A stretch of 53,663 bases of DNA from positions 1 to 53,663 of the IMG/VR virus record IMGVR_UViG_3300023178_000063; one strand, 5' to 3'. Both the position numbers and the translations under genes were made by a program. This stretch comes from a virus. Below, piece by piece: positions 3,311 to 19,195 of this stretch. How positions within the stretch are numbered: position 1 is the first letter of the stretch; each line of letters starts with the position of its first letter. The notes below the pieces were generated by a model that saw only the letters and a program-made list of their open reading frames with translations, ran no database searches and was not told the DNA's origin.

Positions 3311-6127
3311 TTATTGAGCAAGCAATCTTATATTTGATTTCATGTTTGCTGGAAATAATGCAAACGCATCAGCATCTGCAATTATTTTCTTTGCAAGTGC
3401 TTGAACATCAGCAGTGTCTGCATTAGGATCGTTAGCCATAGCAATTATTTGATCATTGTATGCAAATGCTCTTGCTGTAGCATCAGAGCCTGTAGTTGCG
3501 TTAGTATCACCACCAGTTGCTTCTGGATCATCTGCGTTAGCACTATCAGCCGCACTATTATCATCTGAAGGATTCATTGAATTTCTCAAAGCATCCATTA
3601 ACTGCCCACGTTTAAATGATTTTAATACTTCGGCTGCTTCTGATTTGTTTACTATTTTGCCGCCATTTGGTTCACCAGCAGAGTCTGGAACTCTTTGGTT
3701 ACCGTTTAGGACACTTATTACTCGATCAAAGTCGTTTTGTAAATCCATTAATTGATTCATATCTGCGCCCTGTAATTGAAGTGCTCCAACAAGTGCTTCT
3801 GCCTCTGCTTTGCTCATATCTGATTTGTAAAAAGTATCTACGTCTAAGAAATCACCTGATACGTAAGAAGATGCACCGCCACCAGTTGCTTCTGGATCAT
3901 CTGCGTTAGCACTATCAGCCGCACTATCATCGTCTTTTGGTTTAGATCTTATTGGAAGATTAGGACCAACCCCTTCGCCGCTACTAATCTCATTTCCGTC
4001 GTCGTCGTATACTGTATATCGTTTCATTTGGCCACTACCAGTAACTTCTTTATATGCTGGAGGACCTACTTCATCTTCGGAGTCTTGGCTTCCTGGATCT
4101 TCACTACCTTGTTGTGCTTCCCATTCTTCTTTAGTAGGTAAGTTTGTTGGTCCTGCACCTCTACCATTGCGTAGTTCATTACCGTCTTTGTCAAATACTT
4201 TATAGCGTTTGCTTTGACCTGAACCTGTTACTTCTTTATATGCCGCTTCACCTCTTGTACCATCGTCTGGTCCTGAAGTTGGTTCTTCGTCGTCTTCTGG
4301 TGGACGTTCCACACCAACACCGTCAATAGTACCGTAAGTAATTTCTGGAGGAATTTTATCCCAGTCTGGGTTACCATCAGCGTCTAAATATTCTGCTGGA
4401 ATTTCGTCACCATTTTCAAAGTCACCAGTATCTGCATTTCCATCTAACGCTTGTTTTGCATCTTTCATTATATCTGCAAATCGTTTTTGTGCTGGTTTCG
4501 GCAGTACTTGATTCCATTCAGGGTCATCGTATGCTGGTTTTAATTCATTATATAGTGTTTGTAATTCTTGTTTTTCTGCATCAGACAATGCTTCAGTTAA
4601 CATACGTTCTACAAGATTAATCATATCACGTATATTGACGTTTGCAGATTCTGCAGAAACATTATTAGAACCTATTGCTCCGCCTGATTGTAAATCTGGA
4701 TCGTTTGCATTAATAGCACTACCGTCTGTTTGCCCAGATGATGTTGTGCCGCCAGTTCCGCTTTTCTTAACAAGCTCTTCCATGCGTGTCATTGCTCTAC
4801 GGAAATCTGCAAATGATTTATTATTACCGTATTTGATAGATCTTAGTTTAACAATCATGCCAATAGTTTCTGGACCTGCATCGCCGTCAACTTTTGCACC
4901 TGTGTATTCTTGGAATTCTTTAACAGCTGAAATAGTATTGCTACCGTAAGTGCCGTCTGCACCTTTGGTATCAAACCCTAAATCAGTTAAGAATTGTTGC
5001 AATTCTTTAATAGCATCTACTTCTTCTGGATCGTTAGCAAGACCGCCTTTGCCTGATTTGGCAAATGCTTCTAAATCACCCGATGGAGTATCGTCATCTT
5101 TTGAATCATCTGCTCCTTTATCATTGCTATCGTCGCTTGCTTTTTGTGCTTCCGGATCAACTTCGTCATCTGCTTTGTCATCTGCTTTGTCATCTGCTTT
5201 GTCATCTGAATCAGCTGATCTCATTTCTTTAACTCGATCAATAACTGGTTGATATTGATTTAATCTTCTTAGTAAGTTAGTACGATCAAATCTGCTGATT
5301 AAATATTCGTTATCTCCCATATTGGGATCTTGGAAGTTAGCAATTTTGTTTAAGTCATCAAATATTTTTAATAACTCTTCCATTTCAGAATTGCTTAATG
5401 CTTCAATTAATATAATTGCTTGGTCTGATTCAGTAAGCATGCCTTTTAAACTATTTGGAATGCTTTCGTTCATCTTACGAATTAGCTCATCTAATCTTCT
5501 TACGAGCTGACCTGCTTTTGTATCTAAATTACGTTTGCTTCTACTGTCGTTTGTAAAGGTAGAACCGTCTGATAATACTAATTTATACGGATCTTCGTTA
5601 GGTGTTGCGTTATCTGCCGCATCAGCATCTAACTCATCGTTACTTTGTGGTGCACCATCAATTTGAGCATCGCCAGTTTTTGCTCCGGTCATGCCTCCCC
5701 AAATTTCCCAATCTGGATATTTTTCTTTTGCTTTTTCTAATCTTTTTGGAGGTAGCATGTTAAGCTCTGCAAGTTTCTTAACATCTTTTTCTTTCATTCC
5801 TAAACCAAATGCTGTACCTGTTTCTGCAAACCGTGTACTATTTTCGTCTGGCTTAGTAGTTACAATACCGCCGAGTGTTGCACTGTCAGGTTTATACATT
5901 CCAACAACACCTAATTTTTGTGCAACCTTGCCTAAAAAGTAGTTACGATGGCCGTGCCAAAACTTTCCAGGTAAACTATTGTATATTTTTTCTACATCTG
6001 CATAAGTACTTCCAGAACCGATAGTATCTACTTTAGCATCAATTTCAGCTTTATCATTTCTGCTTACTTCATCTAACTGCTGATTGGCTTCGTCTAAGAT
6101 ATCGATATATTGTCTAAGATTGTTCAT
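3311..6127 (-). CDS. Giant acidic repeat protein of the head-core cluster with peptidoglycan-binding-like domain
   Basis: A 938-residue, acidic, modular protein. Residues 1-14 end in ILDEA, a possible targeting peptide with an L-x-E cut. Residues about 366-430 form a PG_binding_1-like domain (DGTYGSNTISAVKEFQ, then KVDGDAGPETIG). A helical module occurs twice (IEALSNSEMEELL; TEALSDAEKQELQ) and again in the 1,228-residue neighbour, each time just after L-x-E. A 35-residue module AYKEVTGSGQ(S/M)KRY is present twice, and ADSANADDPEATGG is duplicated. Acidic linkers carry three ADDK repeats. It overlaps the upstream gene by 14 bases. It could be a scaffold/core protein or a packaged polyprotein; both are inferred. 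A wall-degrading enzyme is unlikely because no catalytic domain is visible. Confidence 0.8.
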   Translation of the reverse strand: MNNLRQYIDILDEANQQLDEVSRNDKAEIDAKVDTIGSGSTYADVEKIYNSLPGKFWHGHRNYFLGKVAQKLGVVGMYKPDSATLGGIVTTKPDENSTRFAETGTAFGLGMKEKDVKKLAELNMLPPKRLEKAKEKYPDWEIWGGMTGAKTGDAQIDGAPQSNDELDADAADNATPNEDPYKLVLSDGSTFTNDSRSKRNLDTKAGQLVRRLDELIRKMNESIPNSLKGMLTESDQAIILIEALSNSEMEELLKIFDDLNKIANFQDPNMGDNEYLISRFDRTNLLRRLNQYQPVIDRVKEMRSADSDDKADDKADDKADDEVDPEAQKASDDSNDKGADDSKDDDTPSGDLEAFAKSGKGGLANDPEEVDAIKELQQFLTDLGFDTKGADGTYGSNTISAVKEFQEYTGAKVDGDAGPETIGMIVKLRSIKYGNNKSFADFRRAMTRMEELVKKSGTGGTTSSGQTDGSAINANDPDLQSGGAIGSNNVSAESANVNIRDMINLVERMLTEALSDAEKQELQTLYNELKPAYDDPEWNQVLPKPAQKRFADIMKDAKQALDGNADTGDFENGDEIPAEYLDADGNPDWDKIPPEITYGTIDGVGVERPPEDDEEPTSGPDDGTRGEAAYKEVTGSGQSKRYKVFDKDGNELRNGRGAGPTNLPTKEEWEAQQGSEDPGSQDSEDEVGPPAYKEVTGSGQMKRYTVYDDDGNEISSGEGVGPNLPIRSKPKDDDSAADSANADDPEATGGGASSYVSGDFLDVDTFYKSDMSKAEAEALVGALQLQGADMNQLMDLQNDFDRVISVLNGNQRVPDSAGEPNGGKIVNKSEAAEVLKSFKRGQLMDALRNSMNPSDDNSAADSANADDPEATGGDTNATTGSDATARAFAYNDQIIAMANDPNADTADVQALAKKIIADADAFALFPANMKSNIRLLAQ

Positions 6128-6473
6128 TGTCTTTTCTACCTGTTTTTTCTTTTAAGCGTTGAGATAATGAATGTTTATAATCAGCACCTTCTAATGTTGG
6201 AGCATTTTTTTGTACAAAGTTTTCTTCGTAATCAAGGTGATGATATACAGATCCTAAATAATCAGCGGCTTTGGTAATTTTTGATTGTACCCAGCCTTCT
6301 AAACCTTCTTGCTCGCTTACGCCTTTTAGCATTTCGTGCAATTTAATTGAATATTTGGCAATTTTGTACAAATCAGCCCTTGCCATTTGTACTTCGTGAT
6401 CTTGTTCGGCTCGCTGTGCTAAATCTGCTAAGCCTTCGTCTGCACGAGTTTTTTGTAGATCGTGTCTGTTCAT
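6114..6473 (-). CDS. Conserved-looking helical protein, role unknown
   Basis: A 119-residue helical protein with the block MARADLYKIAKYSIKLHEML and the block GWVQSKITKAADYLGSVYHH. I recall similar blocks in uncharacterised structural proteins of marine T4-like phages, which is recollection and not a search result. Unlike most of its neighbours it has no clear capsid-targeting peptide. The start follows an NATAAATA late box by about 36 bases. Its stop overlaps the start of the 938-residue gene. A role in head assembly is inferred from position only. Confidence 0.75.
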   Translation of the reverse strand: MNRHDLQKTRADEGLADLAQRAEQDHEVQMARADLYKIAKYSIKLHEMLKGVSEQEGLEGWVQSKITKAADYLGSVYHHLDYEENFVQKNAPTLEGADYKHSLSQRLKEKTGRKDNEQS

Positions 6474-6508
6474 TTAAAATACTCCAAAAAGTTATAACTT
6501 TATTGTAG

Positions 6509-6516
6509 TATTTATC
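6509..6516 (-). promoter_or_regulatory. Candidate late promoter box (GATAAATA)
   Basis: Minus strand GATAAATA in the gap between two head-cluster genes, 36 bases before the ATG at 6473. It matches the T4-type late box at seven of eight positions. Confidence 0.6.
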
Positions 6517-6528
6517 AGATTGATAAAG

Positions 6529-6711
6529 TTATGACTTAGTTTTGTTTTTTGATTTTTTAGGTTTTTTAGTGCCTAACATATTGTCTTGATCTAATGCATT
6601 TTTTGCAGTACCGTCTGGATTTTTCATTTGACGGCTAACCATACCACCTACTGGTGTAGCAACACTTGCAATTGATCCTGCTGTTGTTTCACATAGTTCT
6701 TTTATTTTCAT
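6529..6711 (-). CDS. Small protein with capsid-targeting-like N-terminus
   Basis: A 60-residue protein starting MKIKELCE followed by TT. After the possible L-C-E cleavage site comes TTAGSIASVATPVGGM, a Thr/Ala/Gly-rich sequence, and a very basic tail (KKPKKSKNKTKS). The basic tail suggests nucleic-acid binding, in keeping with packaged internal proteins. It overlaps the metalloprotease gene by four bases (ATGA type). No known domain. Confidence 0.7.
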   Translation of the reverse strand: MKIKELCETTAGSIASVATPVGGMVSRQMKNPDGTAKNALDQDNMLGTKKPKKSKNKTKS

Positions 6712-7430
6712 GATTTATTCCTACCTGATTTCATATTAGCACACCAATGATACATTTTTGCCTTTTCACCACTTGCGTTTTTAGCACGTTTGCGTAAACT
6801 TGTTACACTTCCATTGCAACTTGCACCTGCACGTTTTACACGCCCTGGTCTGCTTTTGCCTTTTTCCTTACCATCAGCAAAGTTTTCTGTAAACAACCTT
6901 GGATTATGTTCTGCCCATCGTCTTAGTAAAACCCCTGCCATTGCATTTGCTTCATTTTCGTCTGGACTTCCATCTGAACCGTCTAATTCTTCTTTTTCTT
7001 CACGCTGTTTACAATGTACAAGCTCGTGTGCCAGTGTACGCATTGTATCCATTTGATGTCTACCATTATAACTTACAGTAATACTATCTTCATCTATATT
7101 ATAAAATCCAAATGTTTTAGGTAGAGCTTTATTGGTTACTGTGATTGGAGGTAATTTTTCTATACCTAATCTTTTAGCACAAAATCTAATAAATTCTTTA
7201 TAATTATTTTTTGTTTTATCGTCAATTGATTCAGCAAGACCTAAATTAAATAATACGTTTGTTTTAGAACCTTTTACTTTTTTGCTTAGTGTAGGAGGTC
7301 TTCCGTTTTTGTCTACAGTGTTACCAAACTTACTTGCCTCAATAGGAATCTGATCAACACCTACGTCTACTGTAGTGTTAACGCCTTTTACAATTCTTCC
7401 ATCTTCGTTTAGTATTTCGTAGACTTTCAT
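6708..7430 (-). CDS. Putative packaged zinc metalloprotease (HELVH)
   Basis: A 240-residue protein. The N-terminus MKVYEILNE is a model capsid-targeting-like peptide. A second L-A-E lies at residues 65-67, just before the folded part. The zinc motif H-E-L-V-H is at about residues 135-139, followed some 20 residues later by ENEANAMAG, a likely third-ligand glutamate region as in gluzincins. The C-terminus is a basic module with spaced cysteines and a HWCANMKSGR signature, which may bind a second metal or nucleic acid. Family: M-type metallopeptidase, exact family not assigned. If packaged it could act inside the head or in the host after entry; that is inference. Confidence 0.8.
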   Translation of the reverse strand: MKVYEILNEDGRIVKGVNTTVDVGVDQIPIEASKFGNTVDKNGRPPTLSKKVKGSKTNVLFNLGLAESIDDKTKNNYKEFIRFCAKRLGIEKLPPITVTNKALPKTFGFYNIDEDSITVSYNGRHQMDTMRTLAHELVHCKQREEKEELDGSDGSPDENEANAMAGVLLRRWAEHNPRLFTENFADGKEKGKSRPGRVKRAGASCNGSVTSLRKRAKNASGEKAKMYHWCANMKSGRNKS

Positions 7431-7847
7431 TTACAACTTAGGACCTTTTAGTGTTTGTGATGCTGTTGGTCTTGCGTAAGGTTCAGCATTTTTAATAATG
7501 TCTTTTATTTGACCAATAGTTTTTTCTTGATCTCTAATAACTCTACCAAGATTACGAAGTTCGCCTTGTGTTAACATTTGATCAGGTTTGGCTTGTAATT
7601 TACCAATAAAGTCTTTACTTTCAATAAATTCTTGATTGTCTTTAGCACGTTTTTGTAATTTGTCTAATTGCTTTAGTTTATCAGGACTTAGTTTAACAGG
7701 AGTCTTACCCCAAATCTGTTGCCAGTATCTATGTATAAGAACGTGTCCTCTTTCAAACATGCTGGGCTTTACTATTCCTCGTAAGATATTTACTATAGCA
7801 AATAATAGCGGTGGCATCATTTCACTTAATACTTCGTTTGCCTTCAT
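7431..7847 (-). CDS. Putative internal head protein with hydrophobic N-terminal segment
   Basis: A 138-residue protein starting MKANEVLSE, another L-x-E peptide. The next 20 residues (MMPPLLFAIVNILRGIV) are hydrophobic and could insert in a membrane once the peptide is removed. The remainder is a long, charged helical region (residues 50-125) likely to form a coiled coil. It abuts the metalloprotease gene with no spacing. A protein stored in the head that later interacts with the host membrane is one reading, but this is inferred from the sequence pattern alone. Confidence 0.7.
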   Translation of the reverse strand: MKANEVLSEMMPPLLFAIVNILRGIVKPSMFERGHVLIHRYWQQIWGKTPVKLSPDKLKQLDKLQKRAKDNQEFIESKDFIGKLQAKPDQMLTQGELRNLGRVIRDQEKTIGQIKDIIKNAEPYARPTASQTLKGPKL

Positions 7848-8065
7848 TTCTTACGTCCTCTAAATTGAGTAGGGCCTGTCATATAAGGCTTACTAAACCA
7901 TAACTTAAACCAGTCAGCATCTCCTGGTTTTAGTCCTAAATCTTTTTCTTTTTTCTTAAGTGCTGTAGCAGTTTCACTTGGATTTTCGTCAATTTTGTAC
8001 TCCGAGTATCCTTTGAACTCGTTTACACCTGCAAGACGTTTTAGTTCTTCAATACTATCATACAT
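7844..8065 (-). CDS. Small basic hypothetical protein
   Basis: A protein of 73 residues if it starts at the ATG at 8065 (MYDSIEELKRLAGVNEF); a TTG two codons earlier is possible but less likely. The block LKRLAGV also closes the 1,228-residue protein nearby as RLKVLAGV, hinting at a shared short docking motif. The C-terminus is basic (FRGRKK). The start overlaps the stop of the preceding gene and the stop overlaps the next start, so it is translated within the head cluster. No function is assigned. Confidence 0.65.
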   Translation of the reverse strand: MYDSIEELKRLAGVNEFKGYSEYKIDENPSETATALKKKEKDLGLKPGDADWFKLWFSKPYMTGPTQFRGRKK

Positions 8066-8723
8066 CGCCAAATGCTTTCCTTGATAGTTCTAATCCTTCT
8101 TCTTGTGAAATAACTTTACCGTTGTTTTTAAATATAACTTCACCACCTGTAGAGTTTGCTATATTCACAAGATCCTTCATACTTCTGGCACCGCGGCCTG
8201 CCTCTTGTGCTATTGCCTTGGCGTTTTGTAGTTGTTTTGGTGATGCCTTAGTAGCGTCAAACTTTGCCTCGAAAGAGAACTGACCAAGGTTATAGTAAAG
8301 GCTTATAGTATTACCTGTTTGTTTGGCACTAACACCGCCCATTGAGTAACTTGTAGAATCGCTATCGTCTGATATTTTATTGCCTTGCTGATCGTAGGTT
8401 GCTTTTATATCAAATCCTTTGTTTGAATAGTTAACAACAAATGTTTTCTTTTTAATATTATGTACTTGTTTTAATCCACCAATACTTGGTGTAATATACA
8501 TACTTGGTTGACCGTTTTTATCCCAGATAAAAGTTCCTGCACCACTATCTAAACGTGTGCCACCTGTCTTGGTTGTCTTAATTGTTTCACCATTCTCGGT
8601 ACTGTATGGTTGTGGTTTTGCTTCTGGCTTCTTTGGAAATGGTTCAAGCATTGGTTTGATTTTTTCAGGAGCAGCCTTTCCTAATGGAGATAATGCGTTT
8701 TCAATAATTTCGTATACCTTCAT
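8058..8723 (-). CDS. Putative internal head protein, beta-rich
   Basis: A 221-residue protein starting MKVYEIIE, almost identical to the metalloprotease N-terminus, with an I-I-E cut. A proline-rich linker (residues 25-45) leads to a Gly/Ser-rich beta region with alternating hydrophobics (about 55-165), then a helical C-terminal end. No catalytic motif is visible. It overlaps the 1,228-residue gene by one base and the next gene by eight. A packaged protein of unknown activity is the best reading. Confidence 0.75.
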   Translation of the reverse strand: MKVYEIIENALSPLGKAAPEKIKPMLEPFPKKPEAKPQPYSTENGETIKTTKTGGTRLDSGAGTFIWDKNGQPSMYITPSIGGLKQVHNIKKKTFVVNYSNKGFDIKATYDQQGNKISDDSDSTSYSMGGVSAKQTGNTISLYYNLGQFSFEAKFDATKASPKQLQNAKAIAQEAGRGARSMKDLVNIANSTGGEVIFKNNGKVISQEEGLELSRKAFGDV

Positions 8724-11700
8724 TAGACACCTGCCAATACTTTAAGTCTATTTATAACAGCACTTTCGTTTCTGCTTCTACGAGTTTTTCCTTTGAAGTT
8801 TGGATCAAACTGTTCTCCGTCCCAAGTTCCGTCTTTGTTAGCACCTTTTCCGTAATACTTGATATTTCCTTCACTGTCCATTTCGCCAGCCGGATGCAAT
8901 AGTTCTTTTGATTGTTCAATCTTACCATCCATTCCTCTATATGAATCATATTCTTTTTCAAGAGCTTGGTATTCTGGAGTATCCATTGCGCCAAATCTAT
9001 CACCATCTGGATTATCTTTTTTCCATTGCTTTGCAAAGTCACGCATCTTCTTACGCACTTCTTTTTTCTCCTGACGTAATTTTTCTGTGTCTGGACCGTC
9101 TTTCATTCTCTTTGAAAAACGTGTTGTACTGCCACCACCTGATTGACTTACAGTTTTACTTGATCCGCCAGTTGTAGTTACTGAACTTGAACTTGAACTT
9201 GATCTCGTTGATGTAGAATTGCTATTACTTGTTTTTTTAGTTCCTGTTGTAGTCTTACTACCTTCGCCGTCAGTTTTGAATATATCATCAAATTTATCAT
9301 CGTCTCCGTCTAATAATTTATCAAAGTCATCTTTGCCACCGTCGTCGATAAACTTTTTAACTTCAGGGTCTTTAATCATTTCTTCAGCCTTTGCTTGCAA
9401 GCGTTCGCCTTTTGCTTTATACTTGTCGTCAATTGCTTTTAATTCTTCTGGATAATCAGGATCTTCTGGCTCTGTTGGAACACCTTGATAGTATTCACTG
9501 TCTGGATTATCCAACTGCTCTCGTGTCCACTTATCTTTTTCGTCACGAGCTTGTTTTGCTAATCCTTCAATCTGCTGTTTTATCTTTTTATAATCGTTTG
9601 CTCTACCTGACAGATCCTTACCAAAAGTTTTTTCGTATTCGTCTCTGCTTACTTTTTTACCGTCTAATGTATATGAGCTACCTGATTGAAAATCGTCATC
9701 ACCACCTTGTTGATCAGTTTGTGGCTCTTCACCTCTTGTGCCGTCATCAGGTCCTGAAGTTGGTTCTTGTGTTGACGCACTTTGTCCACCGTTGTATTGC
9801 ACACCAGCGGCTTGTAATTTATCTGTTATTCTATTAAGGAATGTTTGGAAGTATGGTTCACTTTGTACAGCATTAATAAGAGATTGTAATTCTTGTTTTT
9901 CTGCATTACTTAATGCTTCTTCAAGATGCTGTGCTATAGAACTTTTATATGAGATACTTTCAGATGCTCCTTGTTTTTTAAGTAAATCGTTAATTCGTTT
10001 TGAAATGTCATTTCCAGACATCTGTTTTCCGTTAACATCATACATTTTTTCACGAGGTGGAATAGGCTTTTCGTCTTGTGGCTCTTCACCACCTTGTTGA
10101 TCAGTTTGTGGCTCTTCACCACCTTGTTGATCAGTTTGTGGCTCTTCACCACCTTGTTGATCAGTTTGTGGCTCTTCACCTCTTGTGCCGTCATCAGGTC
10201 CTGAAGTTGGTTCTTCACCACTTGTTCCTTTTTGTTTATTTGCTTGGCTTACAAGAAGATCGTAAATAGGCTTTCCACTCTTTGATTTTTTATTTTGCAT
10301 TTTTTCTTTAAGTTGTGGATCTGCTTCAACTTGTTCAAGAGCGCCTGCATAATCTTTTTCTTTAACTAATTTTTGGAAGTTAGCAATATTTTCTTTGTGC
10401 TGTTCTGGTGTAATTGCACCATTGTCCTGAGCATCGGCATCTAATTCGCTGTCAGTTTGAGGTGCATCTTGTGCTGGCGCAGCCGCTGTTGCACCACCAC
10501 TTAATTTAAGTCCTTTTCCTCTGCGATCAGTATCAATAAATGCTTGTAAATTTTTCTCAGGTCCATATGCTCTTGTTACTGTACCGTCATCGTTTGGAAT
10601 ATCTAAGTAAGGCTCTGGATACTTTGCTTTCATTTGCTTAACATTAAAGTTTGCAAGACCAGGACCTTGGTCGTTCATTTGCATATATCTTTCTGCACTT
10701 ACTGTAGGTTCAGCCGCAGGTTGCTCTGCATCAGCCGCAGGTTGCTCTGCATCAGCCGCTGGTTGTTCTGCATCAGCCGCTGGTTGTTCTGCATCAGCCG
10801 CTGGTTGTTCTGCATTAGTCGGATTGTCTACTTCTTGCCCGCCTCTATTACCGTCATCTGGAACATTACTATTAGTATTTGTATCTGCAGGTTCTGTATT
10901 TTGTTGAGACTGTTGTTGGTCAGTTTGCGGTGCTCCAGCATTTGCTGTTGCTTGGTCAGCTGTTTGTGGCGGAGTAGATGCATCACTTGCACCTGCATTT
11001 GCTGTTGCATCGGCAGCACCGTCAGTACCGGCTTGTGCATCGCCAGATTGTTGTGCTGGTGCGTTTGCTCCACCGCCTGACATTGCTGTTTTCATAGCGC
11101 CTGTTGTTTCAGGCCCTACTTTACCGTCAACTGCAATACCGGCTTTTGTTTGGAAATTTTTAACTGCACCTTGTAGTGTTTCAACAGCGGCTTTTTGATT
11201 TGGATCAGCAATCATTTCTTTTGCTTTGGCTCTTGTATTAGGTCCTACAACTCCATCAACTTTTAAGCCAGCGGCTTGTTGAAATGTTTTAATTGCTGTA
11301 GTTAATGCTTCTGCATCAGCGGCTGTTGCTTGTTCTGCTAATATGTTTTCGTTTTTCTTTGGCTTACCGTGTTTGTTGTGTTGTGCCCAAGCAATAGCAT
11401 AAGGTGCTCCAGGATCGTCAAACTTGCCCTTTAATTTTTTGACTTGTTTTTCTCTACCTGGGGGTGCCTTCTCCATTTGCTTTTTCTTTTTAGATTTGCA
11501 AGATTCAAATGCTTGTACAACGTCTTCATTTGAAATAACGTAACGATAATTACTGCCTTTTCGAAGATTTATTTCCTTGCCAACAATTAATTTAAGCCAT
11601 TCTGCTAATTGGTCAATATCATCTGTTTGTGCAATCTTATCTGCAATCATACTAATAATATGTGATCGTAAACGACTCTGATCAAGTACAAGATCACCTT

Positions 11701-12409
11701 CTTTAACTTTGCGCATTTTCTTTTTCATTTTCTCCTCATCAGGAGAATCACCAAAGTATTTGTGTACTAAATTGTCAAGTTCGTTGTGAAATTTCTTTTC
11801 ATTTTCGGGGCTAACGTCTTCTTTGACAGTATCTTTGATACCCATACCTTGTCTAACTGCGGCAAACATTTCGTCAGCTACTTCATCACGCGGCACACCT
11901 TGTTTAAACGATTCTAAATCATTGTCAGCCGCTGCCTGACGCATTTTACTTGCACTCATTCCTTCTGCACCATCTGCATCTGGATCACGTTCACCTGCAC
12001 TTACAACTTGAATGTTGTCAAATGCATATGCTACTTTTCCTTCTTTGTCTGGAGAATTATTATATTTGTTAATTAATTCTTCAAATGCTTTTACACGATC
12101 GCTACCAGCTACATAAATTAAATGTTTGTATCCTAACTGATATATTTTTTCTAACGCTTGAATAATAGTTTTAACATCGGGGTGACCAATGCTTACTGCT
12201 GGAAAAAAGAATTTAGCATATCGTAGTTTATCTTCAAATGCTAATGGATCTGTTTTAGGTTTTTGTGACTGACTTAAAAATACATAATGATCGCCAGGTA
12301 GGCTTTTGATCTTGTCAACTAATTTTTGATGACCAATAGTGGGAGGATTCATTCTTCCAAATGCAATTACGGCTGTTCTTGGTTCTTCGTATAGTTGACG
12401 TAGTTTCAT
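8723..12409 (-). CDS. Giant head-core-cluster protein with NMN adenylyltransferase-like domain and peptidoglycan-binding-like repeats
   Basis: A 1,228-residue modular protein. Residues 1-9 (MKLRQLYEE) are a capsid-targeting-like peptide. Residues 10-190 form a nucleotidyltransferase fold: T-I-G-H at 24-27 is the (H/T)xGH motif, with AGSDR and SASKMR further on, as in NMN/cytidylyl-transferases. Residues about 320-350 carry a basic block (PPGREKQVKKLKGKF). Residues about 360-441 hold two PG_binding_1-like units (KVDGVVGPNT; AVDGKVGPET). Then follow five EQPAADA repeats, three GGEEPQTDQQ repeats, the ALSNAEKQELQ module shared with the 938-residue protein, a Ser/Thr-rich stretch and a charged helical C-terminus. 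The enzyme activity is inferred from fold motifs; the rest could be a scaffold. Confidence 0.85.
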   Translation of the reverse strand: MKLRQLYEEPRTAVIAFGRMNPPTIGHQKLVDKIKSLPGDHYVFLSQSQKPKTDPLAFEDKLRYAKFFFPAVSIGHPDVKTIIQALEKIYQLGYKHLIYVAGSDRVKAFEELINKYNNSPDKEGKVAYAFDNIQVVSAGERDPDADGAEGMSASKMRQAAADNDLESFKQGVPRDEVADEMFAAVRQGMGIKDTVKEDVSPENEKKFHNELDNLVHKYFGDSPDEEKMKKKMRKVKEGDLVLDQSRLRSHIISMIADKIAQTDDIDQLAEWLKLIVGKEINLRKGSNYRYVISNEDVVQAFESCKSKKKKQMEKAPPGREKQVKKLKGKFDDPGAPYAIAWAQHNKHGKPKKNENILAEQATAADAEALTTAIKTFQQAAGLKVDGVVGPNTRAKAKEMIADPNQKAAVETLQGAVKNFQTKAGIAVDGKVGPETTGAMKTAMSGGGANAPAQQSGDAQAGTDGAADATANAGASDASTPPQTADQATANAGAPQTDQQQSQQNTEPADTNTNSNVPDDGNRGGQEVDNPTNAEQPAADAEQPAADAEQPAADAEQPAADAEQPAAEPTVSAERYMQMNDQGPGLANFNVKQMKAKYPEPYLDIPNDDGTVTRAYGPEKNLQAFIDTDRRGKGLKLSGGATAAAPAQDAPQTDSELDADAQDNGAITPEQHKENIANFQKLVKEKDYAGALEQVEADPQLKEKMQNKKSKSGKPIYDLLVSQANKQKGTSGEEPTSGPDDGTRGEEPQTDQQGGEEPQTDQQGGEEPQTDQQGGEEPQDEKPIPPREKMYDVNGKQMSGNDISKRINDLLKKQGASESISYKSSIAQHLEEALSNAEKQELQSLINAVQSEPYFQTFLNRITDKLQAAGVQYNGGQSASTQEPTSGPDDGTRGEEPQTDQQGGDDDFQSGSSYTLDGKKVSRDEYEKTFGKDLSGRANDYKKIKQQIEGLAKQARDEKDKWTREQLDNPDSEYYQGVPTEPEDPDYPEELKAIDDKYKAKGERLQAKAEEMIKDPEVKKFIDDGGKDDFDKLLDGDDDKFDDIFKTDGEGSKTTTGTKKTSNSNSTSTRSSSSSSSVTTTGGSSKTVSQSGGGSTTRFSKRMKDGPDTEKLRQEKKEVRKKMRDFAKQWKKDNPDGDRFGAMDTPEYQALEKEYDSYRGMDGKIEQSKELLHPAGEMDSEGNIKYYGKGANKDGTWDGEQFDPNFKGKTRRSRNESAVINRLKVLAGV
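10078..10180 (-). repeat. 30-base tandem repeat, three full copies plus a partial
   Basis: In-frame repeats encode GGEEPQTDQQ at 10078-10107, 10108-10137 and 10138-10167, identical at DNA level, followed by a 13-base partial copy. A related segment occurs at about 9700-9768 together with the block EPTSGPDDGTRGE, so the array has been copied within the gene. No spacers are present; it is not a CRISPR array. Confidence 0.95.
10711..10815 (-). repeat. 21-base tandem repeat, five copies
   Basis: Five adjacent 21-base units (10711-10731 through 10795-10815) encode EQPAADA. The units form two sequence versions: the first two carry CAGGTTGC and the last three CTGGTTGT, which suggests stepwise expansion by slippage or unequal recombination. 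Confidence 0.95.
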
Positions 12410-12741
12410 TAGTAGCCACCTTTATTAATTTCTTCTAATTCTTCAGAACAAATTCTTTCAATCATAGATAATCTGTCTTCTGGTGTGAATATATCAGCCG
12501 GACCTTTTGCTAAGTTATATTTTTTACAATAGGTATTCATACCACTATCAATTACTGATCCAATTCTGTCTCGATCAAAATCTTTACCATTCCTAATATT
12601 ATCTGCCATACTTGCCATTGCTGGAAAATATGTCTTACGATAAAATTGAGGATCATTACGCATAAAAACAATAAGGTCGTCAGCTACATCAAATGGTAGA
12701 TTATTTTTTTCTTGAGATTGTGTAAATTCATCTATTTTCAT
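12409..12741 (-). CDS. Hypothetical protein of the head cluster
   Basis: A 110-residue, mostly helical, acidic protein. The core VFMRNDPQFYRKTYFPAM looks like a conserved block of marine T4-like phage proteins, by recollection only. The N-terminus MKIDEFTQSQE has the M-K-x-x-E opening of the cluster but lacks the L/I before x-E, so cleavage is doubtful. It abuts the 1,228-residue gene by one base and overlaps the next by four. Function unknown. Confidence 0.75.
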   Translation of the reverse strand: MKIDEFTQSQEKNNLPFDVADDLIVFMRNDPQFYRKTYFPAMASMADNIRNGKDFDRDRIGSVIDSGMNTYCKKYNLAKGPADIFTPEDRLSMIERICSEELEEINKGGY

Positions 12742-12974
12742 ATTCTATGACCTTGTTCTTTTTGTACTTGTTGTATTGCTCTTTTAATATCTACAGGTTT
12801 GGCTTTTGGAAAAGATTTTAACATTCGTTTATATAATTGTTTTGCTGGATGAATCTCAATAAACTTTCTTGCATAATTTAAATATGCTTTAAAATCTTCG
12901 TCACCTGACCAGTCAAAAGCTCGTTTAAATATATCTAAATAACTTTCTTCATTGAGCAATTCATTAATACGCAT
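12738..12974 (-). CDS. Small putative internal head protein
   Basis: I place the start at the ATG at 12974, one base after the stop of the upstream gene and behind AGGAAG; a longer frame to 13046 exists but would run deep into that gene. The product is 78 residues and begins MRINELLNE, a clear L-x-E peptide. The rest is helical and basic (KQLYKRMLKSFPKAKPVDIK), as expected for a small DNA-associated internal protein. The function is inferred from the N-terminal motif and neighbours. Confidence 0.7.
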   Translation of the reverse strand: MRINELLNEESYLDIFKRAFDWSGDEDFKAYLNYARKFIEIHPAKQLYKRMLKSFPKAKPVDIKRAIQQVQKEQGHRI

Positions 12975-12975
12975 A

Positions 12976-13545
12976 TTACCACTTCCTACATGACCAGTAA
13001 CGTGCTTTGTGTCTTGGTCCTGGATTATCACAGTTATGTCTTGCACGAAAACTTCTTCTGCGCTCTGGATTAGACTTTTTAATCTTCATATCAGGATCAC
13101 CAAAGTTAACCTTAACTACGTTACCTTTAGGATTCTTAACATATACTTTAAACTTCTTCACATCACCTTGCATAGGCTTACCAAGTTTAACTTTGCGTCC
13201 TTGGTATTCTGCTTCGTCTAAATCGTCATCTTCATTAAACCACATAACACCAAATTCTTCGTAAAAATCATTACCGTCTAAAGTTATTTCATCTGTAACT
13301 TCTTCAGCCATGTCGCTACTAATTTCAATATCAAAATCATCGTAACCTTCATTAAACATATGATCGGCTAATTTCTGTGCCATTTCTTCAGCTTGTTCTT
13401 CGTTTAGAGAAACAGAAAGTGGAATATGGATCACTGTAGCACCTTGATCAGATTCAAATACTTGATGATCTGGAAATATAGATTCATTAAGTCCTTCACT
13501 TAAGACTTCTTGTTTTTCCATTACTATTCTTACAAAATGTTCCAT
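12976..13545 (-). CDS. Hypothetical head-cluster protein with C-terminal Cys/His motif
   Basis: A 189-residue protein in two parts. The N-terminal half is acidic, with VLSEGLNESIF near the start that contains two L-x-E sites. The C-terminal domain (residues about 113-189) opens YQGRKVKLGKP and closes with RARHNCDN...ARYWSCRKW, a Cys/His/Trp signature I recall from structural proteins of marine myoviruses. The C-terminal spacing could bind zinc. AAGG precedes the ATG; another ATG lies eight codons in. It is the first gene of the head-core-like run. Function unknown. Confidence 0.75.
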   Translation of the reverse strand: MEHFVRIVMEKQEVLSEGLNESIFPDHQVFESDQGATVIHIPLSVSLNEEQAEEMAQKLADHMFNEGYDDFDIEISSDMAEEVTDEITLDGNDFYEEFGVMWFNEDDDLDEAEYQGRKVKLGKPMQGDVKKFKVYVKNPKGNVVKVNFGDPDMKIKKSNPERRRSFRARHNCDNPGPRHKARYWSCRKW

Positions 13546-13912: not shown

Positions 13913-14558
13913 CATTTTTGTCTTCAATGACTATTTTGTCGACTCGCTGAATTCCTCGGCCTAAAACCAATGAAACTAAACTTAACATTTTTTCATTACG
14001 AACATAAAAGTACATTCCGCTTAGATAATTTTTGTTATTTTTAATAAGAGAACGCAATTTATTGCCTATTTTTAATTTATTTTGATTTTCTATTGCCCAG
14101 GTGAAAAATTCGGAAGGTACAGAATTACCTAATGTAATCCTGTATTCCCATCCTCGCATTTTCTCACCCATAACAAGAATATTAGGTTCTAAAGTAGATT
14201 CCGGCTCCCACCACTCAGATGCTTCAAGAATTCTACCTAAATTCTTTAGCCAATCTTTATCTGTTGAATAAATGGCCACACCTATATTTTCTACACGTAA
14301 TTTATAATTATTATTTTTTGATAATTCTTGATAGGCTTTTTGTGCCTTATATAAATCATTAGGGTGTAAATGAATAGTTTTACGCCATTTTGTAAAAGTA
14401 ATTACTTTTTCTTCTCTGTATTTTTGATGATAAAGATCTAATACTTCTCTAATAAATGTTAAATCGTTGCCACGAAAATAATTGGAAAAATGTGTTTGCC
14501 AATGTATTTTATACGGATATTTTCCGTAAAAAAGTTTGGTGGTATTAAATCTCTTCAA
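13908..14558 (-). CDS. Hypothetical protein translated with ClpA
   Basis: The best start is a TTG at 14558, seven bases after AAGGGG, giving 216 residues that begin MKRFNTTKLFYGKYPYK. It overlaps the end of clpA by 14 bases, so translation is probably coupled. The protein is mixed alpha/beta and basic, with a middle block EWWEPESTLEPNILVMGEKM. No catalytic motif or membrane segment is visible. A ClpA adaptor or a structural protein would fit the position, but there is no direct sign of either. Confidence 0.7.
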   Translation of the reverse strand: MKRFNTTKLFYGKYPYKIHWQTHFSNYFRGNDLTFIREVLDLYHQKYREEKVITFTKWRKTIHLHPNDLYKAQKAYQELSKNNNYKLRVENIGVAIYSTDKDWLKNLGRILEASEWWEPESTLEPNILVMGEKMRGWEYRITLGNSVPSEFFTWAIENQNKLKIGNKLRSLIKNNKNYLSGMYFYVRNEKMLSLVSLVLGRGIQRVDKIVIEDKNA

Positions 14559-16785
14559 ATACTTTCCCCTTACAAACAATTTTTATTGTGTTATCATCGA
14601 TATCAATATGTGCTTCACCGCCATTTTTTAAATCACCAAATAATAGTTCTCTGGAAAGTGAACGTTTAATTTCATTATCAATTACACGTTGTAAGGGTCT
14701 TGCACCCATTTTAGGATCGAAACCTTGATCTACAAGATAATCAATAGCTTCGTCGGAAATGGTAATAGCAACATTTTTGCTAACAACCATCTGTTTAAGT
14801 TCAAGTAAAAACTTACCAACAATCTTAATCATAACTTCTTTGCTTAATTTAGCAAATGTAACTGTTGCATCAAGTCTATTTCTAAATTCAGGAGCAAAGA
14901 ACTTTTTAAGCTCTGTATCTTCATAATCTTTTTCAAAGTCGTCATTAAAGCCAATAGTGTTTTTCTCTGCATCCTTGGCGCCAAGGTTAGTTGTAAGAAT
15001 TAGGATACTATTGCGAGCATCTGCTTCTTTACCGTTACTACCTGTAACTTTACCGTTGTCCATAACTTGTAGTAAGATTTGAGAAACATCTGGATGAGCT
15101 TTTTCAATCTCGTCAAGTAGTAATACACAGCCAGGATTTTCTTGTAATTTAGTAATTAACAGTCCGCCATTTTCTTCGTGACCAACATAGCCTGGAGGAG
15201 AACCAATTAATTTAGCAACTGAATGCTTTTCTTGATATTCTGACATATCAAAGCGTACAAGGTTTACTCCTAATTCGTTTGCAAGTTGTTTTGCTGTTTC
15301 TGTTTTACCAGTACCTGTTGGACCCATAAATACAAATGATCCAATTGGTTTTTCTGGACTTTTAAGACCTGCTTGAGCAACAAGAATTTTATCCACTACT
15401 GTTTCAATTGCTTTATCTTGACCAAATACAATCTTTTTAAGATTATGTTCTAAAGTTGCAAGACTTTCGCTTTCTGTTTGTGCAATAAGTTCTTCTTTAA
15501 TTTTTACACTCTTAGAAAGTTCAAACTCAATGTTTTTATTTGAAACAATTCGATTCTCTTCAGGTGCATCATTTACTTTAAATCTTGAACAAGCCTGATC
15601 AATTAAGTCAATTGCTTTATCTGGTAATTTCTTGTCTGCTTGATATTTAATTGAAAGATCTACTGCCGCAACAATAGCTTCTGATGTAATTTCAGTTTTA
15701 TGATAATCTTCATAGTATTTCTTCAAACCTTCAAGAATTTCTATAGTATCCTGACGTGAAGGTTCGTCAACTGTAATACGCTGGAATCTGCGCATAAGAG
15801 CACGATCTTGTTCAAAGTTTTTGCGGTATTCATCCCAAGTAGTACTTGCAACAACTTTTAAATTGCCCTTTGCTAATGCAGGCTTTAGCATATTAGCAAG
15901 ATCGTTTGGACTGTCTTTACTACCAGCACCTGCACCATTAATCATATGTGCTTCGTCAATAAACATAATAGTCTTGCCTTTTTTCATCAAACCATTAATG
16001 ACAAGTTTTAAACGCTCTTCAAAATCGCCACGGTATTTTGAACCTGCAAGCATAGCACCAATGTCAAGATTATATACTTCGTATTCATGCAAGAATGATG
16101 GAACATCTTTGTTTACAATTTTAAATGCAAGTCCTTCTGCAATAGCAGTTTTACCAACACCTGGATCACCTACAAGAATAGCATTATTTTTACTACGGCG
16201 TCCCAGTGCCAATGCAATAAGTTCTAATTCTTCTGAACGACCAATAACTGGATCAATTTTCTTTTTATTAACTTCTCTATTAAGATTGGTTGTAAATGCG
16301 TTTAATGCTTTTTGTTGTGCTCCAGAAATTTCAGTATCTTCAAGAGCTGAGTCAAATTCATTACTAATATATTCAGCAAACGAGTCTTTGTTAATTCCAC
16401 CTTCTTCTGCATAAAATGTTGCATAACTTTTCTTTTCGTGTAACATACTTAGAAGAACATCACTTAACTCAATTTCTGGTCTGCCTGCAAACAGTACTTG
16501 TGTAAATGCTCGATTAAGAACACGTTCAACAGTTTGTGTTTTTTTAGGCTTAAATTTTTCAGCAGTGGTTACTAAATCTTGACACTTGTCTTTTAGATAG
16601 TGTTCTAAGTTAGATTTGAGGTAATTAATATCTGCTCCGTACCCCTCTAATAGTTTTTCAAAGTTATCCGAACATAGCATTGAAAAGAATAGATGTTCAA
16701 GTGTTACATATTCATGTTTTAACTTCCGTGCATCTTTAATAGCTTTTTCAAATACTAATTGCAGTTCTTTGCTTGGTTCTACCAT
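14545..16785 (-). CDS. clpA: ClpA-type AAA+ unfoldase
   Basis: A 746-residue, full-length ClpA-like protein that unfolds substrates and feeds them to a ClpP-type peptidase. It has an N-terminal Clp_N double repeat (1-150), a first AAA module with Walker A GDPGVGKTA and Walker B IMFIDEAH, and a second module with GPTGTGKTE and VLLLDEIEKAH, plus the C-terminal D2-small domain. An I-G-F tripeptide at about residue 611 is where E. coli ClpA has its IGL ClpP-docking loop. No clpP is in the window, so host ClpP is the likely partner (inference). A strong sigma70-type promoter and GAGG precede the ATG, suggesting early expression. Confidence 0.95.
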   Translation of the reverse strand: MVEPSKELQLVFEKAIKDARKLKHEYVTLEHLFFSMLCSDNFEKLLEGYGADINYLKSNLEHYLKDKCQDLVTTAEKFKPKKTQTVERVLNRAFTQVLFAGRPEIELSDVLLSMLHEKKSYATFYAEEGGINKDSFAEYISNEFDSALEDTEISGAQQKALNAFTTNLNREVNKKKIDPVIGRSEELELIALALGRRSKNNAILVGDPGVGKTAIAEGLAFKIVNKDVPSFLHEYEVYNLDIGAMLAGSKYRGDFEERLKLVINGLMKKGKTIMFIDEAHMINGAGAGSKDSPNDLANMLKPALAKGNLKVVASTTWDEYRKNFEQDRALMRRFQRITVDEPSRQDTIEILEGLKKYYEDYHKTEITSEAIVAAVDLSIKYQADKKLPDKAIDLIDQACSRFKVNDAPEENRIVSNKNIEFELSKSVKIKEELIAQTESESLATLEHNLKKIVFGQDKAIETVVDKILVAQAGLKSPEKPIGSFVFMGPTGTGKTETAKQLANELGVNLVRFDMSEYQEKHSVAKLIGSPPGYVGHEENGGLLITKLQENPGCVLLLDEIEKAHPDVSQILLQVMDNGKVTGSNGKEADARNSILILTTNLGAKDAEKNTIGFNDDFEKDYEDTELKKFFAPEFRNRLDATVTFAKLSKEVMIKIVGKFLLELKQMVVSKNVAITISDEAIDYLVDQGFDPKMGARPLQRVIDNEIKRSLSRELLFGDLKNGGEAHIDIDDNTIKIVCKGKVFEEI

Positions 16786-16818
16786 TTTTATTTTTACCTC
16801 TTTACTATAATTTTACAT

Positions 16819-16847
16819 AGTATACTACTATTTACGTTAAAAGTCAA
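16819..16847 (-). promoter_or_regulatory. Sigma70-type promoter for clpA
   Basis: Minus strand: -35 TTGACT (16847-16842), 17-base spacer, -10 TATACT (16824-16819). The expected start is near 16812, giving a leader of about 27 bases before the clpA ATG at 16785. It sits in the 74-base gap between dnaJ and clpA. Confidence 0.85.
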
Positions 16848-16859
16848 TGACTTAAACAC

Positions 16860-17675
16860 TCAATTTAATTGACTTTTAAAAAATTCAATCTGGTTTAAAA
16901 TATTGCTATCGTTTACCTTTGGAACAGTACCTTTAATTGTTACATATATTGTACCTCGATGATTACTTCTACTGTCAGGCAATCCGTATCCGCCTATACT
17001 AAAAGTAGTGTTAGGTTGTGTTCCTTTAGGTATTTTTAAATTTATTTGTTTTCCTTCAGGAGTAGTTATAATTTTTTCAGCCCCGGTTATAAGATCAAAA
17101 ACACTAACATGTGTAGTATGTAAAAGATTTAGCCCGTCAAGGTCCCAGCCTTCTATTCGATTTATTCTAACTTTTAATAGTAAATTTCCTCTTGGAATAT
17201 TTGGTATACTGTCATCACCATAATTACTAATTCGTATAACATCTCCAAGTTTAACACCAGGTGGAATATTTACTTCAACAAATTCATTTCTGCCACTTGG
17301 TAATTGATATTGTAGTGTTACAGTTTTACCAGTAAAGCAATCTTTTAATTCTAATGTATATTGTAATTGTACATCTCTATTTTGATGTCTTCTTTGTTGT
17401 GCAAATCCTCGACCAAATGCATGAGCAAAAATATCTTCAAATCCTCCCATGCCTCCAAAGTCTTGAGAATTAAAACTATATTGAGGTTGTGGATTATCGT
17501 AAGCCGCACGTTTTTGCGGATCACTTAAATTTTGGTACGCTTCGTTAACTTTTTTAAATTGTTCTTCATCACCACCTCTATCGGGATGATGCTTCATACT
17601 TTGCGTCTTGTATGCTTTTTTAATTTCTTTATCCGAAGCGTCTCGACTGACACCTAAAATAGAATAATAGTCCAT
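16860..17675 (-). CDS. dnaJ: DnaJ-type co-chaperone (no zinc finger)
   Basis: A 271-residue J-domain protein that would stimulate DnaK/Hsp70. The J domain (1-65) has the essential HPD (MKHHPDRGGDE). A Gly/Phe-type linker (about 70-95) leads to the two C-terminal beta domains (about 100-270, DVQLQYTLELKDCFTGK). The CxxCxGxG zinc repeats are absent, so it is a type II (CbpA/DnaJB-like) protein. The dimerisation tail is short. A 10-base-pair inverted repeat covers the start codon (see 17666-17700). It lies between the lysis cassette and clpA; a role in folding phage proteins or in replication is inferred. Confidence 0.95.
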   Translation of the reverse strand: MDYYSILGVSRDASDKEIKKAYKTQSMKHHPDRGGDEEQFKKVNEAYQNLSDPQKRAAYDNPQPQYSFNSQDFGGMGGFEDIFAHAFGRGFAQQRRHQNRDVQLQYTLELKDCFTGKTVTLQYQLPSGRNEFVEVNIPPGVKLGDVIRISNYGDDSIPNIPRGNLLLKVRINRIEGWDLDGLNLLHTTHVSVFDLITGAEKIITTPEGKQINLKIPKGTQPNTTFSIGGYGLPDSRSNHRGTIYVTIKGTVPKVNDSNILNQIEFFKSQLN

Positions 17676-17700
17676 ACAATTACTTATCGCATGGACTATT
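17666..17700 (-). promoter_or_regulatory. Perfect hairpin over the dnaJ start codon
   Basis: In the dnaJ mRNA AAUAGUCCAU (17700-17691) can pair fully with AUGGACUAUU (17675-17666), leaving a 15-base loop. The second arm contains the AUG and the next two codons. No strong Shine-Dalgarno is present outside the loop. Such a structure could control translation; a temperature-sensing role is a hypothesis. Confidence 0.6.
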
Positions 17701-17718
17701 GTATAAAGTTAGTACTGA

Positions 17719-18048
17719 TTACTTCTTCTTAGAGGTTAACGCTTGACCACCAAAGAATGCCGCTACGATTGCCGCAACTGACACAAAGTATGTGGCTGCC
17801 ATATCACCTAAGATTTTAGCCGCACTATCTAAACTTAATAGCACTGCTAATACAACAGCAAAAGGATATAGTAGCATACCAAACAATGCAAACCATGCCA
17901 TGTTGCGTTGTGCATCACGCATTGCATCTGCATCTTCAAGTTCTTTTCTTTTGAACTCAAGATACATCTTTTCTTCTGCTTCGCTTACTTTGCCGTCGCC
18001 GTTAGTGTCTGCTGGATGATGCCCTGCTGATTTAATTTCTTCACTCAT
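17719..18048 (-). CDS. EF-hand membrane protein of the lysis cassette (holin-like)
   Basis: A 109-residue protein. Residues 14-25 (DTNGDGKVSEAE) are a canonical 12-residue EF-hand calcium loop with acids at positions 1, 3, 5 and 12. A charged helix follows, then two membrane segments (about 50-71 and 83-104) and a basic end (TSKKK). Two segments plus a basic tail and a location next to spanins and endolysin suggest a holin, but this is inference. It overlaps the next upstream small membrane gene by four bases. The alternative is a membrane anchor with another role in lysis timing. Confidence 0.8.
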   Translation of the reverse strand: MSEEIKSAGHHPADTNGDGKVSEAEEKMYLEFKRKELEDADAMRDAQRNMAWFALFGMLLYPFAVVLAVLLSLDSAAKILGDMAATYFVSVAAIVAAFFGGQALTSKKK

Positions 18049-18329
18049 TTAGATTTCCCCTCTAATTTTTTAATACGAGATTCTAACTCGTCAATCTTTG
18101 AAGTTATTTTAGGATACTTTACACGCCATGCATTTGGATCATTTTGAAACCAAGTCCAGCCCCAACGTATTGCAAGGTATTCTAAAAAAGAATCAAACTT
18201 AGTTACAGCCCAAGTCGCCATTCTTGTATCTTTGAACCAAAATAAGAATGCCGCACCGAATAACGAACCAAAGATACCTGTGTAAATCCACAGTCTATCG
18301 CTTGCCATGTTTTGTATCATTTCCCACAT
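18045..18329 (-). CDS. Small membrane protein of the lysis cassette
   Basis: A 94-residue protein with one clear membrane segment (about residues 13-31, LWIYTGIFGSLFGAAFLFW), an aromatic middle (IRWGWTWFQNDP) and a C-terminal coiled helix (IDELESRIKKLEG). It starts after GAGGGAG and a late box at 18355-18362. It is translated with the EF-hand protein. A holin, antiholin or other membrane partner is possible. No family is recognised. Confidence 0.75.
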   Translation of the reverse strand: MWEMIQNMASDRLWIYTGIFGSLFGAAFLFWFKDTRMATWAVTKFDSFLEYLAIRWGWTWFQNDPNAWRVKYPKITSKIDELESRIKKLEGKSK

Positions 18330-18354
18330 AATAACTCCCTCGTGTTACTATGTG

Positions 18355-18362
18355 TATTTATT
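18355..18362 (-). promoter_or_regulatory. Late promoter box (AATAAATA)
   Basis: Minus strand AATAAATA, 25 bases before the ATG at 18329, with GAGGGAG between. It overlaps the stop codon of the small lipoprotein gene. The position gives a normal leader for the two small membrane genes. Confidence 0.65.
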
Positions 18363-18519
18363 AGAAATCACACTGAACTACGCCCTTAGGCGTTACTATA
18401 TCTTCTATAGATTTTGCTTGGGGGTTTGGCTCAATGCCAGGTTTTACGATACAAGTAGATTTATGTCCGCAACTACTCAGAGTCAGCAGTATCAGTATCA
18501 GGCTTAACTGCTTCTTCAT
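18361..18519 (-). CDS. Small lipoprotein overlapping the spanin genes
   Basis: The frame starts best at ATG 18519 and gives 52 residues: a lysine start (MKKQ), a hydrophobic stretch and a lipobox LSSC with the modified cysteine at residue 17. The mature part is about 36 residues with two further cysteines. It overlaps the end of the Rz1-like gene by 47 bases in a different frame. It looks like a second outer-membrane lipoprotein in the lysis region. It could assist the spanin or be an unrelated surface lipoprotein. Confidence 0.65.
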   Translation of the reverse strand: MKKQLSLILILLTLSSCGHKSTCIVKPGIEPNPQAKSIEDIVTPKGVVQCDF

Positions 18520-18859
18520 AGTATACAATGATTTCTTTTTGCTGTTCAATATAACGTCTTAGTTCAGCAAAGTTTAAAGATAGGTTTTCGTAATCTTTTA
18601 CACCAATAGCAATGTATGCTGTCTTGCCGTTCTTAGCATAAAATTCTTCGAGGAATTCTTCGTAGTTTTCTTCTGTAACCACATAGATTTTGACATCGTT
18701 CAACTGCACCTTTTTAGGGTGTGGAACAATCGGTACTACCGTACGTTGTACATCAGTTACTGTTACTATCTGTGGTTCCGGAGTCAGTAGACTGCACCCC
18801 GCTGTTAGCGTTAGGGTCAGTAATAGACTCAAGATCATCCCAAAGTTTGTTAGTCGCAC
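18473..18859 (-). CDS. Outer-membrane spanin subunit (Rz1-like lipoprotein)
   Basis: A 128-residue protein with a signal peptide and lipobox (LTAGC; cysteine at residue 22). A GTG start at 18859 is supported by GAGG seven bases upstream. The mature protein has a Pro/Val-rich segment typical of o-spanins, then a helical part with many Tyr and Glu. It is longer than lambda Rz1. The gene starts inside the i-spanin gene in another frame, overlapping by 107 bases, which is a hallmark arrangement for Rz/Rz1 pairs. It would join the inner-membrane partner and fuse the membranes at lysis. Confidence 0.8.
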   Translation of the reverse strand: MRLTNFGMILSLLLTLTLTAGCSLLTPEPQIVTVTDVQRTVVPIVPHPKKVQLNDVKIYVVTEENYEEFLEEFYAKNGKTAYIAIGVKDYENLSLNFAELRRYIEQQKEIIVYYEEAVKPDTDTADSE

Positions 18860-19184
18860 TTTGCATCCTCTGTTCTATTAAACCTGGCTTTTTAGTAGCC
18901 AAGTGTGTTAAATTATGACGTTGTAGAGTAGCACGAAGTTCATCTCCGTACTGCTCTGCCTTTTGTAAGTCACTCTGTAGTTGTCCGTTTAGTTCACCAA
19001 TACGAACATTTTCTTCCTGCAATGTTTTTACACTGGCTTCTGCTGTTTGTACAGCAACTTCCATTTTAGCAACATTAGCACGAGCTGTTTCTAAATCACT
19101 TTGTAATTTTTTAACGTATAAGAATCCGCCGCCGGCTAATCCGATAAGTGTTAAAATAATTGCAATTCTTATTGATGTAAACAT
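18753..19184 (-). CDS. Inner-membrane spanin subunit (Rz-like)
   Basis: A 143-residue protein with a single N-terminal membrane anchor (residues 6-24, IAIILTLIGLAGGGFLYV) and a long periplasmic coiled coil (about 28-95). This is the usual form of an i-spanin. The end of the gene overlaps the Rz1-like lipoprotein gene. It follows the endolysin gene by only 11 bases. Rz-like proteins vary greatly in sequence; the call rests on topology, coiled coil and gene arrangement. Confidence 0.8.
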   Translation of the reverse strand: MFTSIRIAIILTLIGLAGGGFLYVKKLQSDLETARANVAKMEVAVQTAEASVKTLQEENVRIGELNGQLQSDLQKAEQYGDELRATLQRHNLTHLATKKPGLIEQRMQSATNKLWDDLESITDPNANSGVQSTDSGTTDSNSN

Positions 19185-19195
19185 AACATTACTAT

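Follow-up and report, generated by a model that had tools for sequence, protein, structure and literature searches.

The window analysed here, that is, the whole stretch of 53,663 nucleotides presented above, carries on its minus strand an open reading frame of 1228 amino acids in which a short leader, a nucleotidyltransferase domain, a linker, two PG_binding_1 repeats and a low-complexity C-terminal part follow one another, with an N-terminus that reads MKLRQLYE|EPRTAVIAFGRMNPPTIGHQKL. A first-pass annotation had delimited positions 11838-12409 as the feature; its frame, strand and motifs were correct, but these 572 bp are not the whole gene, of which the nucleotidyltransferase makes up only the N-terminal sixth. 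The main elements are:

8723-12409, minus strand: the 1228-aa open reading frame (ORF table, Pfam, PHROGs)
12386-12409, minus strand: leader MKLRQLYE, with predicted cleavage after E8 (LYE|E), from the pattern in relatives
11840-12382, minus strand: nucleotidyltransferase domain, residues 10-190 (PHROGs, AF2 model, Foldseek PDB)
12329-12340, minus strand: T-I-G-H (HxGH-type) motif, residues 24-27; T24, G26 and H27 invariant in 61 relatives
12095-12106, minus strand: G-S-D-R motif, residues 102-105, a hallmark of the family; G102, D104 and R105 invariant
11939-11956, minus strand: SASKMR (ISSTxxR-type), residues 152-157; S152, S154 and K155 invariant, position 157 being R or K
11333-11341, minus strand: putative second prohead-protease site LAE|Q, residues 357-359
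11078-11326, minus strand: two PG_binding_1 repeats, residues 362-444 (Pfam PF01471, E=2.5e-15)

The LAE|Q sequence is one of six [LIF]xE sites in the whole protein and lies immediately ahead of the PG-binding pair; cleavage at residue 359 may split the enzyme from the tail.

The nucleotidyltransferase domain and its family

PHROG matches, an AF2 model and PDB folds all agree on the nucleotidyltransferase that the first-pass annotation had recognized at about residues 10-190. Over these residues the protein matches the cytidyltransferase families PHROG 3041 (E=5e-53) and 395 (E=6e-39) as well as PHROG 455 (E=4e-17), and the profile match to the PHROG 395/3041 (T4-GC190) family spans the full domain. 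The Pfam model PF01467 (CTP_transf_like) gives a match below the Pfam cut-off with the 205-aa window domain (E 0.0031), whereas individual scans of 61 relatives detect it in 60. Structure prediction, which had been suggested as a check, was done with an alignment of relatives as AF2 input and yielded a Rossmann-like nucleotidyltransferase fold (pLDDT 91.2, pTM 0.83). A Foldseek search of the PDB with this model produced 104 matches at E<=0.001, the best 50 of which are all PPAT, NadD or NadM-type enzymes; among the matches listed, E values are about 1e-5 to 1e-4 and target-normalised TM-scores are mostly 0.55-0.7. Weak sequence matches in the PDB to clostridial S-layer proteins, which cover residues ~75-138 alone and are not confirmed by the fold search, were discarded.

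Eighty IMG/VR loci were fetched, 61 relatives were aligned and 68 distinct relatives entered the leader count given below. Invariant in the alignment are G18, R19, N21, P22, P23, T24, G26, H27 and K61, likewise G102, D104, R105, N117, G139, R141, S152, S154 and K155, so that M20 and I25 alone vary within the GRMNPPTIGH motif, and the later motif takes the form SxSK(M/L)(R/K) throughout. By computation, the window domain is shown to be a predicted nucleotidyltransferase of the HIGH (cytidylyltransferase-like) superfamily with its catalytic set intact. This bears on the idea of a structural core or scaffold protein built on a dead nucleotidyltransferase fold, which would suit the long low-complexity tail with its PG-binding repeats and the published detection of homologues in the head by mass spectrometry (MS), but which we consider highly improbable: catalytic-motif residues that are all invariant in 61 diverse sequences are not demanded by a structural use, and the tail is variable, whole proteins ranging from 195 to 1228 aa.

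At least 554 phage records contain the domain; most come from cyanophages or further T4-like phages of marine origin, and Rak2-like and PA5oct-like jumbo phages are represented too. A search of plasmid records gave no match. The T4-GC190 family is already known, and the window protein is a further member of it. Its cyanophage proteins (S-SM1 gp190, S-SCSM1 ORF91, S-CREM2 ORF154) have the same domain, at about 33-48% identity in most, together with the same catalytic set and an N-terminal leader, and MS places them in the virion in those isolates that were analysed. In comparison with them, the leader of the window protein is shorter, at 8 residues, and adjoins the domain directly, the C-terminal part with its PG-binding repeats is far longer, and the protein belongs to a PA5oct-like lineage. 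CBB_73 of a Rak2-like phage (30% identity, E=2e-19 in a single comparison) and Deifobo_0106 of a PA5oct-like phage, the latter within a gene order common with the window, fall into the same family by BLAST, although, unlike the window protein, both lack a leader and consist of the enzyme by itself (179-190 aa). The 'NMNAT' of S-CBWM1, which the literature describes as virion-associated, is related only distantly, at 15% identity in the fold search, and was left out of the family. Several members are evidently misnamed 'ribonucleotide reductase A' or 'NrdB' in public records, among them KY945241.1, a protein of phage 121Q and UniProt H8ZNG8.

Candidate substrates

The label of NMN adenylyltransferase given in the first-pass annotation found no specific support, since PPAT and NadD/NadM fit equally well. 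With NadD, NadM and NadR the family shares the superfamily fold and motifs of the HxGH, ISSTxxR and GxD types, but the window protein has TIGH instead of HxGH, no NadD Trp, and the family-specific GSDR and GERDPDADG, and the matches of its family to these enzymes are no stronger than those to PPAT. CoaD/PPAT enzymes, which provide the best Foldseek matches and have the T/HxGH motif, show 10-18% identity among the fold matches listed, and their RGLR is replaced by AGSDR. Alignments with hhalign to E. coli NadD, CoaD and NadR and to a phage NadM gave E values of 0.004-0.010 for all four, with no discrimination. The position of the Trp that stacks on nicotinamide in NadD, at the place where we take it to lie, is not a Trp in the alignment, nor is any Trp conserved elsewhere; another aromatic residue could serve.

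Reconstitution of NAD+ by phages is an established counter-defence (PMC12774641), and a packaged NMN/NaMN adenylyltransferase would restore NAD+ early and blunt a defence that depletes it. Such an activity would agree with the rank of NadD and NadM near the top of the PDB fold matches, with the alignment of GSDR (present also in CBB_73) to the IGQD motif of NadD, and with the NCBIfam models touched by the 61 members, all of them weakly: NadD in 43, NadM in 9, NadR in 6 and CoaD in 2. The window protein itself scores 13.5 bits against NadD TIGR00482, whose cut-off is 112, and stays under the curated cut-offs of the NadD, NadM and NadR models. On the other side, PPAT is equal or better in the fold search and level in hhalign, and the nicotinamide position lacks a conserved Trp. 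Moreover, a published survey found NadV in every phage that had NadM (PMC9503650), whereas NAPRTase/NadV is absent from 14 of the 15 phage genomes or contigs searched (the window, Deifobo, Melnitz-3, S-CREM2, S-SCSM1, S-SM1 and eight window relatives, where the window and its close relatives are fragments). CBB alone is positive: this phage holds NadM and NadV besides its separate member of the nucleotidyltransferase family (together L085 8013-8552 and L134/L135), a gene set which suggests that NadM and this family differ in function. Because of the tie with PPAT in fold and profile, the missing NadD Trp, the absence of NadV and the CBB gene set, the NMNAT reading is not favoured; NAD synthesis is possible as one candidate activity of the nucleotidyltransferase, and early NAD+ restoration by the packaged enzyme looks doubtful. 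Likewise, 'cytidyltransferase' in the databases is only the name of a domain.

The enzyme might also nucleotidylate a host protein or RNA, in the manner of Alt, which ADP-ribosylates RNA polymerase. The logic of injected effectors and the acidic loop GERDPDADG, specific to the family, would speak for such a target, but the known members of the HIGH superfamily act mostly on small molecules or, in the case of aminoacyl-tRNA synthetases, on amino acid and tRNA, and we hold this role to be quite improbable.

The leader and its genomic setting

The capsid targeting peptide of phage T4 is MKTYQEFIAE. In it, residues 4 and 7 serve targeting, and residues 8 and 10 serve processing (PMC9026906). A capsid-targeting peptide had also been proposed for the window protein on account of MKLRQLYE, and indeed this T4-like leader follows a pattern, M-(0-3)-hydrophobic-x-x-hydrophobic(1-2)-x-Glu shortly ahead of the enzyme, that recurs in 62 of 68 distinct viral relatives, while within these proteins it follows 15 of the 624 internal Met. 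Since the pattern and the limits of the gene block discussed below were both fixed after inspection of the data, the p-values for the leader are exploratory. Near-exact T4-type signals, with the strict 10-residue spacing, are found in cyanophage homologues such as those of S-SM1 (MKKFSAFLNE|A), S-SCSM1 (MKSFLQFLKE|A), ACG-2014d (MKKFSDFLSE|A), S-N03 (MKGFSNFLIE|A), S-CREM2 (MKNFSSFLTE|A) and P-RSM4 (MKKFNAFLIE|A), the leader of Melnitz-3 being MKKFSEIIE|A; that of the window, with 8 residues (L3/L6/E8), is a variant shorter than the T4 form. In the cyanophage isolates, roughly 20-105 residues of varying sequence lie between leader and enzyme core; as this spacer varies in length, the conservation of the leader does not depend on the sequence beside it. 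No leader occurs in the members from CBB, G17 and Deifobo, the last being the nearest isolate, nor in the Syn1 protein. The window protein shares with T4 IPI-III and Alt a short N-terminal peptide ending in hydrophobic-x-Glu. The T4 peptides direct their proteins to the head and are cleaved by gp21, and the proteins are injected; the relation of the window protein to them is limited to the leader, Alt being an ADP-ribosyltransferase and the window protein a nucleotidyltransferase. Altogether, it is plausible that MKLRQLYE is a capsid targeting signal of the T4 type.

Leaders of this kind are concentrated in the neighbourhood of the gene. Between 2.4 and 13.6 kb of the window, 8 of 15 genes begin with one, compared with 1 of 44 elsewhere (p 2e-5, with limits set post hoc), and two related contigs (G004 and G008) group them in a similar way. 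The block (2415-13545, minus strand) comprises small and large leader-bearing genes and resembles a set of internal head proteins. Its members include:

12738-12974, minus strand: leader MRINELLNE, by the leader pattern
8058-8723, minus strand: leader MKVYEIIE, by the leader pattern
7431-7847, minus strand: leader MKANEVLSE, which matches only a variant pattern allowing Ala3
6708-7430, minus strand: leader MKVYEILNE, with HELVHC; weak likeness to M78/IrrE-like metallopeptidases
6529-6711, minus strand: leader MKIKELCE, by the leader pattern
3311-6127, minus strand: protein of 938 aa whose PG-binding segment is of endolysin type and whose start, MNNLRQYIDILDE, is longer and leader-like, though the pattern does not count it as a match

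The product of 6708-7430 is possibly an injected protease. PG-binding repeats in two large proteins of the cluster (3311-6127 and 8723-12409) are unusual for internal head proteins.

With regard to lineage, the clamp loader of the window shares 54.6% identity with its counterparts in PA5oct-type jumbo phages, and the window and Deifobo have one gene order in common: clamp loader, PhoH, two virion proteins, DnaJ-like gene, Clp ATPase, nucleotidyltransferase. This identity and the gene order at 14545-25310 place the window, as far as sequence can tell, as a marine relative of the PA5oct-like jumbo phages (Arenbergviridae), which are giant phages of Pseudomonas. The nearest isolates (PA5oct-type, Deifobo) encode an S77 protease of the T4 type as well as a gp23 bearing the site LVE|N, and protease and gp23 were found also in a further contig (G011). 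Head genes were seen neither in the window nor in its relatives of 94-124 kb, all contigs of the lineage being fragments, and queries from S-CREM2 and S-SM1 gave no convincing homologues of T4 gp17-gp23 in two relatives of 123-124 kb; for this reason, the protease specificity of the window lineage is taken from Deifobo.

Virion association and the proposed route into the host

The homologous nucleotidyltransferase has been detected by MS in virions of S-SM1 (PMC3037559), S-SCSM1 (PMC9602691) and S-CREM2 (PMC10665884), and delivery of an 'NMNAT' was already proposed for the cyanophage proteins, with carry-over also allowed (PMC9602691, PMC10665884). These published virion data lend support to the packaging and injection, in the style of T4 Alt, that had been suggested from the window alone. 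In S-CREM2, a T4-spaced leader starts 5 of 51 MS-positive genes versus 1 of 167 MS-negative ones (p=0.003, exploratory, as the T4-spaced pattern was written after the list from the loose pattern had been seen), and 1 of 791 internal Met. The five are a SAM hydrolase, an APH-like kinase, the nucleotidyltransferase and two unknown proteins, whereas the loose pattern is not significantly enriched among all S-CREM2 MS-positive proteins (p=0.12). Apart from the nucleotidyltransferase, the leader-bearing virion proteins of this phage are gp6, gp12, gp13 and gp14 (L086), with gp136 (L087) also listed, and its virion Cas9 carries LRFASFMAE some 25 residues from its start. Among the annotated genes in the 229 kb of S-SCSM1, only two have starts that match the leader pattern, one of them the nucleotidyltransferase and the other without a virion-protein label, two cases being too few for a statistic of leader versus MS detection.

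An ordinary cytosolic auxiliary metabolic enzyme, whose N-terminus is part of the fold and whose detection in virions reflects carry-over, would be in keeping with the leaderless, stand-alone members of 177-190 aa in jumbo phages and Syn1, and with the caution about carry-over already in print (PMC10665884). Nevertheless, the leader falls beyond the confidently modelled residues (pLDDT of 61 for residues 1-10, >90 for the domain), variable insertions separate it from the domain in cyanophages, and it is also present on neighbouring proteins unrelated to the enzyme and on further enzymes of the virion, which makes this explanation unlikely.

We rather propose, with a probability of roughly three in four, that the gene product is an internal head protein, that is, a competent nucleotidyltransferase behind a capsid-targeting leader that is packaged and injected. 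The leader would dock the protein into the prohead core, where a T4-type (S77) prohead protease would cut after Glu8 (LYE|E). The processed enzyme would then remain in the head alongside the DNA, enter the host at infection and use an NTP to nucleotidylate a phosphorylated acceptor ahead of any phage gene expression.

The family, its virion association and the idea of injection linked to NAD are already published (PMC9602691, PMC10665884). A search for 'capsid targeting' together with cyanophage enzymes found no paper linking them, in a literature coverage that is incomplete and leaves most subscription journals outside; in the literature searched we found neither the T4-type leader on the nucleotidyltransferase family, nor the grouping of such leaders in the window, nor the overlap between leader and MS detection in S-CREM2 virions. 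Cyanophage virion proteomics has found the enzyme repeatedly, its authors being unable to separate packaging from carry-over, and a leader of the T4 CTS type would supply a mechanism for its presence there. On balance, we lean slightly towards the broader view that T4-like phages beyond coliphages, here marine cyanophages and a marine PA5oct-like lineage, load sets of enzymes into the head by a common leader, with the nucleotidyltransferase as the most conserved member and, in S-CREM2, a SAM hydrolase, an APH-type kinase and possibly Cas9 beside it. The nucleotidyltransferase belongs to the core genes of phages that are very abundant in the ocean. If this view is true, their injected early-takeover proteome would be readable directly from sequence through the leader, which, if general, would predict injected proteins of marine phages that are otherwise hard to learn.
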